From Candidatus Zixiibacteriota bacterium (GTDB taxonomy: Bacteria > SM23-81): DNA of 8,372 nt. Positions 1-8,135 of the stretch are shown in pieces (within the stretch, counting starts at the first letter, position 1; every line of letters begins with the position of its first letter). Both the position numbers and the translations under genes were made by a program. The stretch is from assembly GCA_030628225.1 (NCBI GenBank), contig DAOVRJ010000103.1, positions 1 through 8,372 of the forward strand, read 5' to 3'. The notes under the pieces are model-generated. The model was not told the DNA's origin and searched no databases. It worked only from the letters and a program-made list of their open reading frames with translations.

Positions 1-580
1 AGAGGCTGAAGCGATGGTCCATGCTCATAAAGGTGGCGATTTCCTCCTCGGCCAGCGGAACAATATCCTCACCGGGAAGAGGAAGCGAGTTGTCCGGCTC
101 GGCCCCTATCCCTTCTTTAGCCGAGGAGGTGAGGGCTGGCTCCAAAAGGAGACCCTTCTCTCCCTTGACCTCCAGCAAGCGAAATCGGAACAAATCGATG
201 CTCATTCCATACGAGCCCTCAACAGCTTCCTGGAGGGTGGTGGAGAAATCCGGGGCCACAAGGATGAGCTTGGGATGGAGAGTCAGATCCGCATCCAGCT
301 CGGTCACAAAATCAGTTCGCTGGGAGCAGTTGCGGCAGAGCCAGGCGACGTGAGCGAATCCCTCCACGAGCAGCTGATCTTCCGGCTGGGTGGCCACATC
401 GATGACCACCAGACGACCGCGGGTATCCACGGCCAATAGGTTCATGGGGCCCCGCTTGCCGTCTTTCCCTACCTGATCCACAACCTTCAGGCCCTCCTGC
501 AGAACTGCACAGTGCTCGGCCACCAGCTCGACCAGCTTTTCACTGTTTTCCACGGGCAAATGGTTGAAGATTACGGTCAT
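1..580 (-). CDS. Unrecognised protein with possible degenerate PD-(D/E)XK-like core, 3' end cut by window edge
   Basis: This frame stays open from an ATG at 580 to the left edge, giving 193 residues of an incomplete protein. The ATG overlaps the TGA of the upstream MinD-like gene in an ATGA arrangement, so translation is probably coupled. I cannot assign a family with confidence. Residues 10-80 resemble the core of NucS/RecB-type restriction-endonuclease folds: a helix (ENSEKLVELVAEHC), then two strands around D52 (LLAVDTRGRLVVIDVA), then a helix ending HVAWL. In active nucleases the second strand carries D/E-x-K, but here it reads D61-V-A, so the catalytic lysine is absent. A second alternating segment follows (LILVAPDFSTT, about 105-115, and IDLFRFRLLEV, about 128-138), as in that fold. 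There is a CxxC at 82-85 and an acidic C-terminal stretch from about 150. No signal peptide or membrane segment is visible. A non-catalytic nuclease-fold protein is my inference. Confidence 0.75.
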   Translation of the reverse strand, partial: MTVIFNHLPVENSEKLVELVAEHCAVLQEGLKVVDQVGKDGKRGPMNLLAVDTRGRLVVIDVATQPEDQLLVEGFAHVAWLCRNCSQRTDFVTELDADLTLHPKLILVAPDFSTTLQEAVEGSYGMSIDLFRFRLLEVKGEKGLLLEPALTSSAKEGIGAEPDNSLPLPGEDIVPLAEEEIATFMSMDHRFSL

Positions 581-1531: not shown

Positions 1532-2635
1532 TCACTGCGTCTCTTTCTGCTTGCCGTACTCGATGATGGAGTTCATGCCCCCAAAGGAGCTCTTTACCTT
1601 GTTAGGGTTGTTGGGGTCATCTCTCCACTGGCCATCCACAACGAAGCGGTACTGATAAGTACCTGGTTTCAGGTGCAGTACCTTGGACCAGCTCCCCTGT
1701 CCATCGGTGTCCAGGGTGGCACCTTTACTGAGTTTCCAGTTATTGAAATCTCCGACAATCTGTACGGTCTTGGCTTTCGGGGCGTGGATGTGGAACCTGA
1801 CGCCGTTTTTGACCGTCTGCGACCCCGGGGACGCGGCCGCAGCACTTTGGGATCTGACCCGGTAGGCTCGAGCCTTCGTCATGGAGGACACCTCTTTGGC
1901 CAGGGCGGTGTAATCCCGGTAGCCGCTGCTGTGTCGATCATACTGGCAGATGGGCTGGCCGAAGCCGGTGGCCTCCTTAAGCCGGACGTTGATGTTGACA
2001 ATGGTCTTGAACAGTTGTTTGCCGAAGTGCTTGCGCAGTTCCTCAAATACCTCTTTGGCAATTCTGGTACGCCGGTCATAGATGGTGGTCAGGGCCTGTA
2101 CGTATTTTTTCTGGCCGAACCGATCTTCCATCAGCTTGATGGTCTCGCTGAGCTTGCCCAGGCCGTGCAGGGCGAAGAAACTGGTCTCCAGGGGAACGAT
2201 CACTTCACGGCAGGCTCTGAGGGCGTTGAAGGTGAGCAGGCCCAGGCTGGGTGGGCAGTCGACGATGATGTAATGGTACTTCCCGGGCATTTCCGCCAGG
2301 GCATTAAGGAGGCGGTCCTCCCGGCCCGGCTGTCCGGCCAGTTCTTGCTCCACCGCGCTGAGGATGATTCCCGAGGGAGCCAGGTGGAGATATTTGTTTA
2401 CCTCGATGATGACGTCCTTCATCGCCACATCCCAATGGGTCTCGGAGAGGACGTGATACATGTTCTTCTCTGTTTCCTCGGGCTTAACGTTGAGGCCCAG
2501 GGAGGAATGGCCCTGGGGATCCAGATCCACAAGCAGCACCTTTTTCCTGCGTTCCGCCAGGCAGGCGGACAGATTGATGGCCGTGACTGTTTTGCCACAT
2601 CCTCCCTTGTGATTGACGATGGAGATCGTTCTCAT
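1532..2635 (-). CDS. ParA-family ATPase fused to C-terminal CBM48/AMPK-type glycogen-binding domain
   Basis: The protein has 367 residues. Residues 1-250 are a soluble ParA/Soj ATPase: deviant Walker A KGGCGKT (10-16), LLVDLDPQGHSS (34-45), Walker B/switch II IIVDCPPSLG (123-132), and a typical C-terminal part with YDRRTRIAKEV and GYRDYTALAKEV. A short Ala/Ser-rich linker (about 262-274) leads to an E-set carbohydrate module at 275-362 with GDFNNW (W300), GSW (W316), YRFVVDGQW (W337) and GGMNSII. Compared with the AMPK beta glycogen-binding domain, two ligand-stacking tryptophans and the ligand asparagine (N355) are kept; the ligand lysine is Arg330, and Leu and Thr are replaced by Phe351 and Gly353. 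An upstream in-frame start at 2662 is possible, but GGGAGG 4 nt before 2635 and the normal ParA N-terminus favour 2635. It sits 33 nt after the DUF3467 gene and 1 nt before the MinD-like gene. A role in positioning a polysaccharide-bound cargo is inference. Confidence 0.93.
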   Translation of the reverse strand: MRTISIVNHKGGCGKTVTAINLSACLAERRKKVLLVDLDPQGHSSLGLNVKPEETEKNMYHVLSETHWDVAMKDVIIEVNKYLHLAPSGIILSAVEQELAGQPGREDRLLNALAEMPGKYHYIIVDCPPSLGLLTFNALRACREVIVPLETSFFALHGLGKLSETIKLMEDRFGQKKYVQALTTIYDRRTRIAKEVFEELRKHFGKQLFKTIVNINVRLKEATGFGQPICQYDRHSSGYRDYTALAKEVSSMTKARAYRVRSQSAAAASPGSQTVKNGVRFHIHAPKAKTVQIVGDFNNWKLSKGATLDTDGQGSWSKVLHLKPGTYQYRFVVDGQWRDDPNNPNKVKSSFGGMNSIIEYGKQKETQ

Positions 2636-3400: not shown

Positions 3401-3430
3401 CCCCGAAGGATGTTCCTTCGGGGTATTTTC
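3401..3430 (+). terminator. Intrinsic terminator of the FMN riboswitch expression platform
   Basis: CCCCGAAGGA (3401-3410) and TCCTTCGGGG (3414-3423) form a perfect 10-bp stem with a TGT loop, followed by TATTTTC. Bases 3237-3245 (CCTTCGGGG), which form the 5' side of aptamer P1 and its flank, are identical to the stem's 3' arm, so they can pair with 3401-3409 as an antiterminator when FMN is absent. The short, interrupted U-tract makes the terminator moderate in strength by eye. Confidence 0.88.
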
Positions 3431-3433
3431 GTA

Positions 3434-4516
3434 GTGTCAGGCAGAGACGACGAAAAATATATGTGCCAGGTCCTTCGATTGGCCCGCAGGGGTAAGGGGA
3501 GAACTTCGCCGAACCCCATGGTAGGTGCGGTGGTGGTCAAGGATGGCCAGATCGTAGGCCAGGGCTTTCATCGGCGGCCCGGGGAGGCCCACGCGGAGGT
3601 GATCGCCCTACGCCAGGCCGGTGAGCAGGCGCGGGACGCCACCCTGTATGTCAATCTGGAACCCTGCTGTGTTCATGGGCGGACCCCGCCGTGCACCGAG
3701 GAGATCGTCCGGCGTGGGCTGGCTAAAGTGATTTGCGCTCACCAGGACCCCAACCCCAGGGTCTCCGGGCGCGGCTTGGCCTATCTTCAGGCCCAGGGGA
3801 TCGCCGTGGAAACGGGGCTTCTGCAGACAAAAGCCAGAGAGCTGAATGAGGTTTACATCAAGTACATGGCCACGGGTCAGCCCTTTGTCTTCTTGAAAAT
3901 CGCCCAGACACTGGACGGGAAGATCGCCACCAGAAATGGGGACTCCCGATGGGTGAGTTCTCCCCAATCCCGCCGGTTCACCCACCGACTGAGAGCTCAA
4001 GCGGATGCTGTTCTGGTGGGGGTAGGCACCATACTCAAGGACGATCCTCTGCTGACCGTTCGGCACGTGAGGGGATCAGATCCGGTCAAAATCATTCTGG
4101 ACAGCCGATTGCGGACGCCTCTGCGGGCGAAGGCTCTGGCGGGAGGTCGGGTGATTATCGCCACCTGCCGGGGGGTCGATTCACATCGAGTGAAGCAGTA
4201 TAGGGATCGTCAGATCAGGGTGTGGCAGTTGCCTGCCGATGCTAACGGAATGGTGGATTTGAAGCGACTTCTCCGGCGGGCGGGCAGAGAAGAGCTCACC
4301 AGTGTGCTCATCGAGGGAGGACAGAGGGTGTTCACCTCCGCCTTGAAGGCTGAAGTGGTGGACAAGCTGCTCGTTTTTATAGCCCCCAGCCTGTTGGGAG
4401 ATGGAACAGGATGCATCGGGGATTTGGGAGTTCATCGGATGGCCGACACCCTGCCGATTAAGCAGGTGAAATTCCGGCGCGTGGGGCCGGACCTGCTGGT
4501 CACCGGCCGATTGTGA
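3434..4516 (+). CDS. ribD: Bifunctional diaminohydroxyphosphoribosylaminopyrimidine deaminase / 5-amino-6-(5-phosphoribosylamino)uracil reductase
   Basis: RibD carries out two consecutive cytoplasmic steps of riboflavin synthesis: zinc-dependent deamination of the pyrimidine from GTP cyclohydrolase II, then NADPH-dependent reduction of its ribosyl side chain. With the GTG at 3434 it has 361 residues, a usual length. The deaminase domain (about 1-145) shows SPNPMVGAVVV, the zinc/proton-shuttle HAE (53-55) and EPCCVHGRTPPC, with zinc cysteines C78 and C87. The reductase domain (about 150-361) shows LKIAQTLDGKIA, DSRWVSSP, VGVGTILKDDPLLTVR and IEGGQRVF. The GTG start is chosen because the family begins just before the D-E-K-YM segment and because it lies downstream of the riboswitch terminator. 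An ATG at 3410, inside that hairpin, would add eight residues and is the main alternative. It is the first gene of the operon and ends 7 nt before the riboflavin synthase gene. Confidence 0.95.
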   Translation: MSGRDDEKYMCQVLRLARRGKGRTSPNPMVGAVVVKDGQIVGQGFHRRPGEAHAEVIALRQAGEQARDATLYVNLEPCCVHGRTPPCTEEIVRRGLAKVICAHQDPNPRVSGRGLAYLQAQGIAVETGLLQTKARELNEVYIKYMATGQPFVFLKIAQTLDGKIATRNGDSRWVSSPQSRRFTHRLRAQADAVLVGVGTILKDDPLLTVRHVRGSDPVKIILDSRLRTPLRAKALAGGRVIIATCRGVDSHRVKQYRDRQIRVWQLPADANGMVDLKRLLRRAGREELTSVLIEGGQRVFTSALKAEVVDKLLVFIAPSLLGDGTGCIGDLGVHRMADTLPIKQVKFRRVGPDLLVTGRL

Positions 4517-4523
4517 GGAGCCT

Positions 4524-5162
4524 ATGTTCACCGGTATTGTGCGAGAGCGGGGAGAGATCCTAAAGGTGGAGCGAATTCCCGGCGGGCTGCGGCTGAAAGT
4601 CCGGTCCCCCAAAAACCTTCAGGCAATGCGTTGGGGAGATAGCATCGCTGTGAACGGCGTGTGTCAAACGGTGGTGGCCGTAGATTCCGATTCATTCTCT
4701 ACTGAGGCCATGGAGCAGACCCTGAGGCAGACCACTGTGGCTGAGTGGAAGGTGGGCGACCTGGTGAATCTGGAGAGCCCCCTAGGTCCTGATGACCTGC
4801 TGGGAGGACATCTGGTCACCGGCCACGTAGATGGGGTGGGGTTGATAGGAGCCAAGGTGCGACGAGCCGGAGATGTGTTTTTTCGCATTAAAGCGCCCCG
4901 GGAGCTTATCGCCCAGGTTTTCGAGAGAGGCTCCATTGCCGTGGACGGTATCAGCCTGACGGTGGTGACGGTTCAAGAGGATCAGTTCAGCGTGGCCTTG
5001 ATCCCGCACACACTGAAGGAGACCACTCTGCAGCTGAAAGAGGTGGGTGATAGGGTGAATCTGGAAACAGACATGATCGTTAAAGCCGTGCAGCGGCTCT
5101 TGGGTCCATACCTGATGGACCGGGGACTGACCAGGGAGCGTTTGAAGGAGCTTGGTTTCTAA
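4524..5162 (+). CDS. ribE: Riboflavin synthase (alpha subunit)
   Basis: This enzyme performs the last step of the pathway, dismutating two 6,7-dimethyl-8-ribityllumazine molecules into riboflavin and the diaminopyrimidine that lumazine synthase reuses. The 212 residues hold two tandem lumazine-binding barrels. The first has the invariant MFTGIV start, SIAVNGVCQTVV (40-51) and GGHLVTGHVDGVG (94-106). The second has SIAVDGISLTVVTV (137-150), IPHTLKETTL (160-169) and VNLETDMIVKAVQ (178-190). The C-terminal tail supports trimer formation in the family. AGGAG sits 4 nt before the ATG, only 7 nt after the ribD stop. The motif around 84-93 (ESPLGPDDLL) differs a little from the usual ERAL-type sequence, but the core residues are kept. 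In E. coli nomenclature this gene is called ribC, while many genomes use ribE. Confidence 0.96.
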   Translation: MFTGIVRERGEILKVERIPGGLRLKVRSPKNLQAMRWGDSIAVNGVCQTVVAVDSDSFSTEAMEQTLRQTTVAEWKVGDLVNLESPLGPDDLLGGHLVTGHVDGVGLIGAKVRRAGDVFFRIKAPRELIAQVFERGSIAVDGISLTVVTVQEDQFSVALIPHTLKETTLQLKEVGDRVNLETDMIVKAVQRLLGPYLMDRGLTRERLKELGF

Positions 5163-5172
5163 TGTGAGGGAA

Positions 5173-5178
5173 GGGAGG
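5173..5178 (+). promoter_or_regulatory. Ribosome binding site of ribBA
   Basis: GGGAGG is 8 nt upstream of the ATG at 5187 but only 2 nt upstream of a TTG at 5181. The spacing therefore decides for the ATG start and trims two residues from the longest frame. Confidence 0.65.
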
Positions 5179-5186
5179 TTTTGAGA

Positions 5187-6443
5187 ATGTCTGCAGATGC
5201 GATATCTCCGTTTGATTCCATCGAAGAAGCAGTGGAGGAAATTCGCCAGGGCAAGATGGTTATCGTGGTGGATGATGAGAATCGTGAAAACGAGGGTGAT
5301 TTCATCATGGCCGCGGAGAAGGTCAGTGCCCAGGCGGTCAATTTTATGGCCAAACATGGCCGTGGTCTCATCTGCATGCCCATGACGGGCGAGCGGCTTG
5401 ATGAGCTCGGCCTGTCTCTCATGGTTGCCGAAAACACCGCCAAGATGGGCACTCCTTTTACCATCTCCGTTGATGCTGTTCGCGATACCACCACGGGGAT
5501 CTCAGCCCATGACCGGGCTGTGACGGTCATGGCTCTTATCGATCCGGCTTCGCGGACAGAGGATCTGGCCAAACCGGGCCACATATTCCCCTTGAGGGCC
5601 ATGGAGGGTGGCGTTCTGCGCCGGGCCGGCCATACTGAGGCCGCTGTGGACCTGGCCGTGTTGGCCGGGCTGTTTCCCGCTGGTCTGCTCTGCGAGATTA
5701 TGGCTGACGATGGATCCATGGCGCGGGGCCCGGGACTGGAGAAGTTAAAATCCAAATTCGGCCTGAAGCTCATCACCACCAAAGATCTCATCAACTATCG
5801 CCGTCAGACGGAAAAGCTGGTTCGGTGTCTGGTGACCACCAAGCTGCCCAGCAAGTTTGGCTCCTTCACCCTCCATCTCTATGAGGATGTTCTCACCGGT
5901 GATCACCACGTGGCTCTGGTGAAGGGGGATGTGCGGGGTGCCCAGAACGTGTTGGTGCGAGTTCATTCTCAGTGTCTCACCGGAGATCTTTTTGGCTCCC
6001 TGCGCTGTGACTGCGGTGAGCAGATGGAGGAAGCCCTGCGGCGGATCGAGAGCGAGGGCAGAGGTGTTTTCCTGTATATGCGACAGGAGGGCAGGGGTAT
6101 TGGCCTGGCCAACAAGTTGCGAGCCTATGAACTCCAGGATCAGGGGCGGGATACCGTGGAGGCCAACGAGGAGCTGGGTTTCGCGCCGGACCTGCGAGAT
6201 TACGGAATCGGCGCGCAGATCCTGGTGGATCTGGGTCTTTCCAGCATTCGGATCATGACCAATAATCCCCGCAAGATCACAGGGTTAGAGGGATATCAAC
6301 TAAAGGTGGTGGAGCGTGTGCCTCTACAGATTGTTCCCCGGAAAGAAAATGTCCGTTATCTGAGGACCAAAAGGGATAAGTTGGGACATCTGCTGAATCT
6401 GTCGGAGGAAGAGCTTCCGGAATCAAAAAGGGGGGAAGGATGA
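5187..6443 (+). CDS. ribBA: Bifunctional 3,4-dihydroxy-2-butanone 4-phosphate synthase / GTP cyclohydrolase II
   Basis: This 418-residue fusion supplies both starting branches of riboflavin synthesis. The N-terminal RibB domain (about 5-205) converts ribulose 5-phosphate to the four-carbon unit and shows [11 protein letters not shown] (29-39), [23 protein letters not shown] (129-138) and [14 protein letters not shown] (148-161). The C-terminal RibA domain (about 208-400) opens GTP with loss of formate and pyrophosphate. It shows the zinc site C263/C274/C276 within [31 protein letters not shown] (299-314), [23 protein letters not shown] (335-346) and [10 protein letters not shown]. Both active sites look complete, so unlike some RibBA proteins neither half seems degenerate. 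The last codons overlap the ribH start in an ATGA arrangement, and the gene begins 24 nt after riboflavin synthase, both consistent with one co-translated operon. Confidence 0.97.
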
Positions 6444-6919
6444 AAGTTCACAAGGGATATTTGGATGCCTCGGGCAGGAAGTTCACTATCGTGGTCAGCC
6501 GGTTCAACGAGTTTATCACCCAGAAACTTCTGGAAGGGGCTCTGGATTGTCTGCGCCGTCACGGGGCCGGGGAGGAAGACCTGGAGGTGGTCTGGGTGCC
6601 GGGTGCCTTTGAGATTCCATATGTGGCTAAAAAGATCGCCGAGGGCGGGAACTGCGATGGGATCATCTGTCTGGGGGCGGTTATCAGGGGGGCTACGCCC
6701 CATTTCGATTATGTGGCCGGTGAGGTATCCAAGGGGGTGGCTCGGATCGCTCTGGAGACGGGTGTGCCCACGGTGTACGGGGTGATCACCGCGGACAGCA
6801 TCGAGCAGGCTGTGGAGCGAGCGGGAACCAAGGCTGGCAACCGGGGTTTCGACGCGGCCCTGGCTACCATCGAGCTAGTGGATTTGTACCGCAAATTGCC
6901 GAAGACAAAGATGTCCTGA
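6440..6919 (+). CDS. ribH: 6,7-dimethyl-8-ribityllumazine synthase
   Basis: Lumazine synthase condenses the four-carbon unit from the RibB domain of RibBA with the pyrimidine from the RibD branch, after dephosphorylation, to give the substrate of riboflavin synthase. The family forms pentamers or 60-subunit shells. The 159-residue length is typical. Visible motifs are [17 protein letters not shown] (18-34), [13 protein letters not shown] (53-65), the active-site segment [21 protein letters not shown] (79-99) with His88, [16 protein letters not shown] (114-129) with the phosphate-binding Arg127, and GNRGFDAA (133-140). GGAAGG immediately precedes the ATG region, and the start codon overlaps the ribBA stop. 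The gene is also named ribE in E. coli, a naming conflict with the riboflavin synthase entry here. Confidence 0.97.
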
Positions 6920-6933
6920 GAGGACGTCCAAAG

Positions 6934-7341
6934 ATGGGGAAAAGGCGCAAGGCCCGTGAGCTGGTCCTGCAGATTCTCTATGCCCTGGAGATCTCCGGGG
7001 AAGAGATAGAGGTGGTTCTGGCGGACGTTTTGGACCGCCAAAAACCGCCTCCCGATGTCGCCGAATTTGCCTCCTTGCTGGCCACCAGGACTGTGGAACA
7101 TCTCCGGGAGATAGACGAGATCATTTCCCAGAAGGTAAAACGCTGGGAGCTATCCAGAATTGCTGTGGTGGACAGAAATCTTTTACGATTGGCCATCTGC
7201 GAGCTGTTCCATTTTCCGGATATACCCCAGAAAGTGTCTATCAACGAAGCCATCGAGCTGGCTAAGACCTATAGCACAAAGGAGTCTGGGCGATTTATCA
7301 ACGGCATTCTGGACTCCGTTGCCGGGCTGCACGGAAAATAG
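6934..7341 (+). CDS. nusB: Transcription antitermination factor NusB
   Basis: NusB, with NusE (ribosomal protein S10), binds boxA RNA and supports processive antitermination, notably on rRNA operons. The 135-residue all-helical protein has the family N-terminus RRKARELVLQILYALEISG (4-22), the middle segment VDRNLLRLAICELFHFPDIP, and the C-terminal signature KVSINEAIELAKTYSTKESGRFINGILDSV, which is very well conserved. AGAGGA lies roughly 9 nt before the ATG, and the gap from ribH is 14 nt. The ribH-nusB order is widespread in bacteria. Here it places a general transcription factor behind an FMN-responsive terminator, unless an internal promoter exists; I see none in the short gap. Confidence 0.97.
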   Translation: MGKRRKARELVLQILYALEISGEEIEVVLADVLDRQKPPPDVAEFASLLATRTVEHLREIDEIISQKVKRWELSRIAVVDRNLLRLAICELFHFPDIPQKVSINEAIELAKTYSTKESGRFINGILDSVAGLHGK

Positions 7342-7400
7342 AGGCCGATGCTAATTTGTGTGGGAAGAAGTGCTCGTCCAGCGTTTTTCCCCTCCCGGCA

Positions 7401-7408
7401 AGAGGAGG
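7401..7408 (+). promoter_or_regulatory. Ribosome binding site of the metallophosphoesterase gene
   Basis: AGAGGAGG ends 4 nt before the ATG at 7413. It selects that start over an upstream in-frame TTG at 7356, whose extra residues are not family-like. Confidence 0.75.
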
Positions 7409-7412
7409 CTTA

Positions 7413-8135
7413 ATGCTCTACGGGATTATCTCCGATATTCACAGCAACCTGGAGGCGCTGGAAGCCGTTCTCCGCGACGCTGAGCAGCAACACATCGACT
7501 CTTTTATCTGCCTTGGTGATATCGTGGGCTATGGCGCCAGCCCCAACGAGTGTGTCCAGCAGATCCGGGAGCTAACCGGACACGTTGTTGTGGGCAATCA
7601 CGATTACGCAGCCGTTGGGTTGACGGATATCTCCTGTTTTAACCTGTATGCCAAACGGGCCGTGATGTGGACGGCCAAAGTTATTTCTGCGGAGCATTCT
7701 GACTATCTTTCTAAGCTGCCTCTCACCGCACAGGTGGATGATCTTTTCCTAGTTCACGCCACTCCCTCCGATCCGCCCGCCTGGAATTATCTTTGTTCCC
7801 CTCAGTTGGCACTGATTGAGTTCGATCTTTTCCAGGGTCGCTGTTGTTTTATCGGCCATTCCCATAAGCCGGTCATATTTTCCCAGAGGGATGGTGATCT
7901 TCCCTGGAAGAATGAGGTGCTGATGTGTTCCCCCGATGAGAGATACATCGTCAACGTGGGTAGCGTAGGGCAGCCGCGAGATGGTGACCCGCGCGCCTGT
8001 TACGCCATTTTCGACGATCAGGCGGGAAAGCTTTTCCTGCGCCGTGTGACCTATGACGTGCAGGCTGCCCAGCGCAAAATTCTCCAGGCCGGGTTGCCGC
8101 CAGTTTTAGCTATCCGGCTGGCTCACGGGGAATGA
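7413..8135 (+). CDS. Calcineurin-like metallophosphoesterase (YfcE/MJ0936-like)
   Basis: This 240-residue protein has all signature motifs of the bacterial/archaeal phosphodiesterase branch of the calcineurin-like fold. These are SDIHSN with D8 and H10, LGDIVGYG with D36, VGNHD with N62, LVHATP with H115, and IGHSHKPV with H149 and H151, followed by the typical VNVGSVGQPRDGDPRACYAIFD segment (180-201). These residues would hold two metal ions and hydrolyse phosphomono- or diesters. The substrate cannot be told from sequence. No signal peptide is present, so it is expected in the cytoplasm. It lies 71 nt after nusB with no obvious terminator between, so it is probably the last gene of the riboflavin-nusB transcript. 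A phosphatase for the riboflavin pathway intermediate is conceivable from context, but the phosphatases known for that step are mostly of the HAD superfamily, so I do not favour it. Confidence 0.93.
   Translation: MLYGIISDIHSNLEALEAVLRDAEQQHIDSFICLGDIVGYGASPNECVQQIRELTGHVVVGNHDYAAVGLTDISCFNLYAKRAVMWTAKVISAEHSDYLSKLPLTAQVDDLFLVHATPSDPPAWNYLCSPQLALIEFDLFQGRCCFIGHSHKPVIFSQRDGDLPWKNEVLMCSPDERYIVNVGSVGQPRDGDPRACYAIFDDQAGKLFLRRVTYDVQAAQRKILQAGLPPVLAIRLAHGE

Follow-up and report, generated by a model that had tools for sequence, protein, structure and literature searches.

The locus described here raises the question of why a ParA-type ATPase, one of the family with which bacteria place DNA or organelles in the cell, should carry, in the same polypeptide, a module of the kind that binds glycogen. 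Bacteria place their chromosomes, carboxysomes, chemoreceptor arrays and PHB and polyphosphate granules, and glycogen is a very common storage polymer of bacteria; to our knowledge, no bacterial machinery that places glycogen has been described. The gene lies in a window of 8,372 nucleotides, the whole stretch of DNA that was analysed, from a Candidatus Zixiibacteriota bacterium (contig DAOVRJ010000103.1). An initial annotation had read its product as an intact ParA domain continuing into an E-set carbohydrate module, which may still bind alpha-glucan and so let the ATPase position glycogen granules or another polysaccharide-associated cargo.

The fusion gene occupies positions 1532 to 2635 on the minus strand, with its stop at 1532, and encodes a single protein of 367 aa that joins a ParA ATPase to a CBM48/AMPK-type glycogen-binding module, as assigned from profiles, alignment and an AlphaFold model. 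Its best start is the ATG at 2635, which has GGGAGG ahead of it, a GTG at 2662 being weaker; with this start the residue numbers first given are exact (KGGCGKT at 10, DLDPQG at 37, VDCPPS at 125, and W300, R330, W337 and N355). The ParA/Soj domain (residues 1-258, positions 1862-2635), identified by profile and fold match, holds the signature lysine K10, Walker A KGGCGKT, Walker A' DLDPQG and Walker B VDCPPS. It matches AAA_31 in Pfam at 171 bits, and its closest solved folds are Soj/ParA (Z 35-41, rmsd 0.9-1.6 A, 241-251 residues aligned), with about 42% identity to Soj; the domain is indeed intact. K10, G11, G12, K15, D39 and D126 are unchanged in all 85 fusions aligned, and by its sequence the family is of the ParA/MinD kind, in the ParA branch. 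An Ala/Ser-rich linker (residues 259-277, positions 1805-1861; AlphaFold and alignment), which ranges from 4 to 71 residues in relatives, leads to the CBM48/AMPK1_CBM module (residues 278-360, positions 1556-1804; Pfam, solved relatives and alignment), in which both W300 and W337 lie. The proposed carbohydrate module was recovered in a domain search, at 53.7 bits for AMPK1_CBM (cut-off 26.8) and 36.5 bits for CBM_48 (cut-off 22.4). Its nearest solved structures are the AMPK beta-1 glycogen-binding domains 1z0n and 1z0m (E ~1e-10), with an alignment that extends from the NNW tryptophan by way of DGQW as far as the GxxN loop, and the module is a bona fide AMPK/CBM48-type domain. AlphaFold models both domains confidently (mean pLDDT 88.7), with a disordered linker and values below 50 only at linker residues 261-268 and in the last four residues. 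Among the Foldseek matches listed for the full model there are ParA folds only, because the ParA domain fills the list, and the module was therefore placed by sequence rather than by fold.

Misassembly, a frame artefact or chance were ruled out as the source of the fusion, since like fusions occur in many genomes: the host's own 2.34-Mb genome has another copy, 76% identical, on contig C210, that of a sister genome (G001) is 77% identical, and hundreds are found elsewhere. A sample across bacterial families gave full-length fusions in 25 of 386 genomes and 16 families. The protein is common among uncultured bacteria, and its named carriers include Omnitrophota, Planctomycetota and Schekmanbacteria. 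A profile of 26 sequences, searched against 285 Omnitrophota genomes, gave a match below E 1e-82 in about 216 of them, a count made by eye in which the weaker-scoring group is on a level with the ordinary ParA proteins included in the control tree; among the roughly 150 matches listed, nearly all span the entire 364-position model. The ParA domains of the fusions fit one origin, a single clade having an AU p of 0.94. The survey for the same fusion that had been proposed thus has a clear outcome, and the initial annotation had mentioned neither this wide occurrence nor the partner gene at 577-1530 with its ParB-like motif.

This distribution bears on the plainest explanation, namely that the protein is an ordinary ParA for the partition of plasmids or chromosomes, to which a further domain has been joined by accident. 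Its likeness to Soj speaks for such a role, but the fusion is conserved in 16 families and in about three-quarters of the Omnitrophota genomes. Moreover, a distinct soj-parB pair is found on the host contig C83, with a strong ParB_N match beside another ParA, so that chromosome segregation is already covered, and no ParB_N match was found among the cassette proteins. We consider a partition role very improbable and reject it.

Whether the module could still hold glucan depends on its contact residues. In AMPK beta, K126, L146, T148 and N150 contact the ligand in addition to the two tryptophans W100 and W133, with which W300 and W337 align. The annotated match to these contacts stands for the tryptophans, which together with G295, F297, W316, G325, Y329, D340 and G352 are identical in 85 of 85 fusions, but it does not extend to Leu146 and Thr148, whose places are taken by F351 and G353 in the window protein; across the 85 fusions position 351 is mostly F or Y and position 353 is variable. 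The replacement of Lys by Arg330 was called conservative, which holds in the first alignment (K or R in 26 of 26), whereas the larger set also has glutamine there (R/K/Q = 48/24/13). The match of N355 is likewise good for the window protein and for 36 of the 85 fusions, while the other 49 have Asp. In plant PTST, mutation of the equivalent tryptophan pair abolishes starch binding (PMC4339375). The invariance of W300 and W337 across such divergent proteins argues for kept alpha-glucan binding, short of proof. One could instead suppose that the E-set module has been turned to protein-protein contacts and has lost sugar binding, as the missing L146/T148 equivalents and the frequent Asp at the N150 equivalent might suggest. 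Certain CBM48 domains do work chiefly through protein contacts. The unchanged tryptophans and the alpha-glucan genes linked to the fusion, described below, make this improbable, and we continue with a putative glucan-binding module.

In the window the genes on the minus strand run in the order DUF3467 protein (2669-2986), the first gene upstream of the cassette, then the fusion, a partner (577-1530) and a third gene (2-580), and the same order recurs at L029 and L033. The partner is a degenerate ParA/MinD-like protein that has lost Walker A (TGDHRSLEKS) and matches minD_arch at 45.7 bits, below the cut-off; it is probably translationally coupled to the fusion, because its start adjoins the fusion stop. 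The ATG of the third gene, at 580, overlaps the partner stop, and the gene runs to the contig end. It is weakly NucS_C-like (20.3 bits against a cut-off of 24), and its alignment has no catalytic-type lysine after the 'VVIDV' strand; we claim no nuclease because the match is below cut-off. Its homologues (L033, L034, L202, L207-L209, L213, L218, L219 and L221) conserve a C-terminal 'LxxEE' tail, and judging by the alignment the family probably lacks catalytic residues. This family was found again near the fusion in about ten more loci, and the unit looks like a cassette of ParA:CBM48 fusion, motif-bearing partner and third protein. On the plus strand, 3410-7341 holds a divergent and ordinary riboflavin operon (ribD-ribE-ribBA-ribH, then a NusB-like gene), followed by a metallophosphoesterase (7356-8135); the sister genome has the same arrangement on this side.

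The operon continues beyond the window. Another host contig, C156, opens with the 3' end of the third gene, its positions 1-318 matching window positions 1-318 with few differences, and because these overlapping ends are near-identical the break inside the operon probably stems from strain variation. The next gene there encodes a 581-aa GH57 plus BE_C protein whose best match is a 1,4-alpha-glucan branching protein (549 bits, which is below a strict equivalog cut-off made for Thermococcales). In the sister genome the same five genes lie in the same order on a single contig. The glycogen reading had been made to depend on a host with glycogen metabolism genes, and these are present, because the host has a GlgA (571 bits) and the operon leads to a branching enzyme. 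No match to GT35 phosphorylase was found in the host. There are more GH57 proteins in this genome, one of which carries its own CBM48: this protein (L114:4699-8091, contig C163) has 1130 aa, with an N-terminal signal-like stretch, the CBM48 and a GH57 domain, and appears to be an exported enzyme, so that in the host genome this type of module serves an apparently exported enzyme too.

Linkage to alpha-glucan genes is seen in other genomes as well. A GH57 gene lies upstream on the same strand in 32 of the 80 loci with a called fusion, all 32 of the Omnitrophota type, most of them less than 1 kb from the fusion (mostly 0.6-0.8 kb) with the partner gene between. In six loci of another clade glgC lies 3.5-4.5 kb from the fusion, while single loci have a branching-enzyme-type GH57 (L202), three GH57 genes (L053) or a glgP-like gene (L176). 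When fusion loci were compared with random regions of equal size from the same 20 genomes, 17 of 20 had an alpha-glucan gene against 5 of 40, a contrast whose p-value is too strong because related genomes are counted separately. When the GH57 label is mapped on the tree of the fusions, four or more changes are required on branches with good support, so the linkage is neither a lone oddity nor many independent events, and much of it may be one ancestral arrangement. GlgA is above the cut-off in 19 of the 23 fusion genomes tested, the host included, and below it in three Planctomycetota and one Omnitrophota genome. Universal linkage to a GH57 operon is ruled out, because of the 20 loci fetched late, which come almost entirely from other lineages, not one has GH57 or an E. 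coli-type glg gene up to about 8 kb from the fusion, or as far as the contig reaches. Conserved Omnitrophota neighbours further include a Lys-rich protein with a weak EF-Tu-domain-2-like barrel (L042:7504-7920) and a DUF4870-like small membrane protein (L154:9089-9412).

Some of the surroundings point elsewhere, towards a role in exopolysaccharide or envelope glycan, in which the fusion would organise a membrane machine for synthesis or export, somewhat like BcsQ. The second host copy (L028, contig C210, 2938-4080) is without a motif-bearing partner and adjoins genes for an OPX/SLBB-like export protein, a Wzz-like protein and a beta-helix-like protein, and it is perhaps a paralogue that has shifted to exopolysaccharide work. 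Furthermore, 46 of the 80 loci have a porin of the Alginate_exp type upstream, the Omnitrophota partner is bitopic with a CBM11/30-like jelly roll outside, and BcsQ is a weak family match. Yet the module is of the cytosolic AMPK type with no signal peptide ahead of it, and the linked enzymes are of alpha-glucan type (GH57, GlgC), with no visible signal peptides, rather than glycan synthases. An envelope role seems unlikely to us.

The partners, too, point towards a dynamic ParA cycle. In ParB the ParA-binding peptide consists of hydrophobic residues flanking one positive residue (in M. xanthus L11, R13, L15, L18 and I19; PMC12462528), and across ParA/MinD systems the ATPase is generally engaged by an N-terminal peptide of its partner (PMC10241942, PMC12204374). 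Comparing the partners side by side, we noticed a short N-terminal stretch that they share. In the window partner this putative docking motif, RLGKGLEDISHLFLS, lies at 1471-1515 on the minus strand (pattern search and comparison with ParB); the motif KRLGKGLEDISHLFLS has an LG[KR]GLxxI core within it, and the peptide MKKDKRLGKGLEDISHLFLSAEQ has the Omnitrophota counterpart MDKKEIYEHLAKIYLDASS. The pattern matches 60 of 65 Omnitrophota partners against 43 of 1177 other ORFs. With the pattern fixed, 20 more loci were fetched as a hold-out and their genes read stop-to-stop; in 14 of these 20 the downstream gene has the motif (for example LGRGLEDISHLFLS, LGRGLADVSHVFLS, SLADVSHLFFS, IARLYFS and LASVYFS). 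At the background rate the chance of this is about 2e-16 if loci are taken as independent, a value that overstates the case because several hold-out loci are close relatives. The motif resembles the ParA-binding peptide of ParB, from which a docking role is predicted.

The proteins that bear this motif otherwise differ between lineages. The Omnitrophota partner, whose gene is directly upstream of the fusion, consists of the motif (e.g. EIYEHLAKIYLD), a basic stretch, one TM helix and an extracytoplasmic beta domain, which AlphaFold models as the jelly roll mentioned above (Z 13.9, rmsd 2.0 over 118 residues), a fold likeness that shows no function; such bitopic partners are L042:5421-5990 and some 60 others, homologous or analogous to it, with no Pfam family above cut-off. 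In the window and the hold-out loci the partner gene is downstream, and most of the hold-out partners are short or resemble a degenerate ParA; they are unrelated to the Omnitrophota membrane protein. At L032, L214 and L215 the downstream genes have an SHYFLS motif and a Cys-rich domain (CASCAHLIA...FQCRI), a ParA-like domain being absent. An apparent ParA-docking peptide is thus distributed over unrelated partner proteins.

Taken together, the fusion, its glycogen-enzyme neighbours and its docking-peptide partners suggest an undescribed system that places or tethers storage polysaccharide. At the level of sequence this is supported by an intact ParA with CBM48, a motif-bearing partner, a conserved third gene and alpha-glucan enzymes nearby in several lineages. 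The reading that we favour, at about even odds, takes the whole for a spatial-organisation system of the ParA/MinD type, with cytoplasmic alpha-glucan (glycogen) or its enzymes as the cargo; glucan binding and positioning by the fusion are what we infer from these features. We hypothesise, with rather less than even confidence, a widespread type of polysaccharide positioning in which the ATPase would grip glycogen through its fused CBM48 and lineage-specific partners, sharing only the ParB-like docking peptide, would drive the cycle, so that granules would be positioned and, when the cell divides, apportioned. An ATP-bound ParA dimer would present two CBM48 modules and hence be bivalent for glucan, and such dimers could coat the polymer or a nascent granule, or tether it, while the ParA face, by analogy with the Soj fold, would bind nucleoid DNA. 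The N-terminal peptide of the partner would dock at the dimer interface, where a hydrophobic cleft has been described as the docking site for M. xanthus ParB, and lead to hydrolysis and release, and repeated cycles of binding and release could set the place of the glucan relative to the nucleoid. In Omnitrophota the membrane partner would tie the cycle to the inner membrane and the glucan would be placed relative to it. Such placement would, we propose, also decide where branching and other glucan enzymes act. Against glucan as the cargo stand the unlinked late loci, the partnerless C210 copy beside exopolysaccharide-export genes, the four carriers with GlgA below cut-off, the host's missing GT35 match and the unkept L146/T148 contacts.

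A related reading keeps the glucan and dispenses with its positioning: the fusion may be an energy-state sensor or regulatory scaffold whose CBM48 senses glucan as AMPK beta does and whose ATPase switches partner binding, for instance in recruiting GH57 to the membrane. AMPK beta is the nearest solved relative, PTST-like CBM48 scaffolds bring enzymes to starch (PMC4339375) and the operon is linked to a metabolic enzyme, all of which could be considered in its favour. On the other hand, all ParA cycle residues and the ParB-like motif are kept, which favours a dynamic ParA cycle over a static scaffold, although not decisively, and we hold a sensor or scaffold to be possible, if on the unlikely side. 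Returning to a positioning ATPase, the claim that no ParA with such a domain has been characterised agrees with the open-access literature (subscription papers were outside our scope), where we found no relevant paper joining ParA with glycogen or CBM48, and a 2025 review of organelle positioning leaves glycogen unmentioned (PMC13052382). A ParA with its own glycogen-binding module is a direct, testable candidate for glycogen placement, and this candidate occurs in most of the Omnitrophota genomes sampled.

Compared with known systems, the fusion is closest to Soj/ParA of ParABS (PDB 2bek, 8ray, 6iub), with which it shares the entire ATPase domain, all Walker motifs and a partner with an LG[KR]GLxxI-like N-terminal peptide. 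It differs in its C-terminal CBM48, in a partner that is not a CTPase/parS-binding ParB and in its alpha-glucan neighbours, and we do not assign it to ParABS because the ParB_N feature is absent from the cassette. BcsQ is likewise a ParA-family protein within a polysaccharide pathway, that of cellulose, but it has no CBM, serves beta-glucan secretion and is structurally further from the fusion (Z 27-28 against 35-41). McdAB and other ParA/MinD cargo systems also pair an ATPase with a partner whose N-terminal peptide engages it (PMC12204374, PMC10241942), a feature predicted here from sequence; unlike in McdAB and ParABS, the cargo here would be a polysaccharide, and the predicted cargo-binding part is carried by the ATPase itself, which is what is new relative to McdAB. 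With the AMPK beta glycogen-binding domain the module shares the CBM48 fold, both stacking tryptophans and, mostly, K/R and N/D at two more contact sites, but here it is joined to a ParA ATPase outside any kinase, and L146/T148 are lost. In chloroplasts, the membrane-anchored MFP1 places the CBM adaptor PTST2 and so decides the sites of starch granules (PMC4339375, PMC10801857). Those proteins are unrelated to ours, have no ATPase and interact through coiled coils, yet the Omnitrophota pair of fusion and membrane partner is formally like them, and would parallel the chloroplast in that the site where the polysaccharide is laid down would be decided by a CBM adaptor together with a membrane protein.
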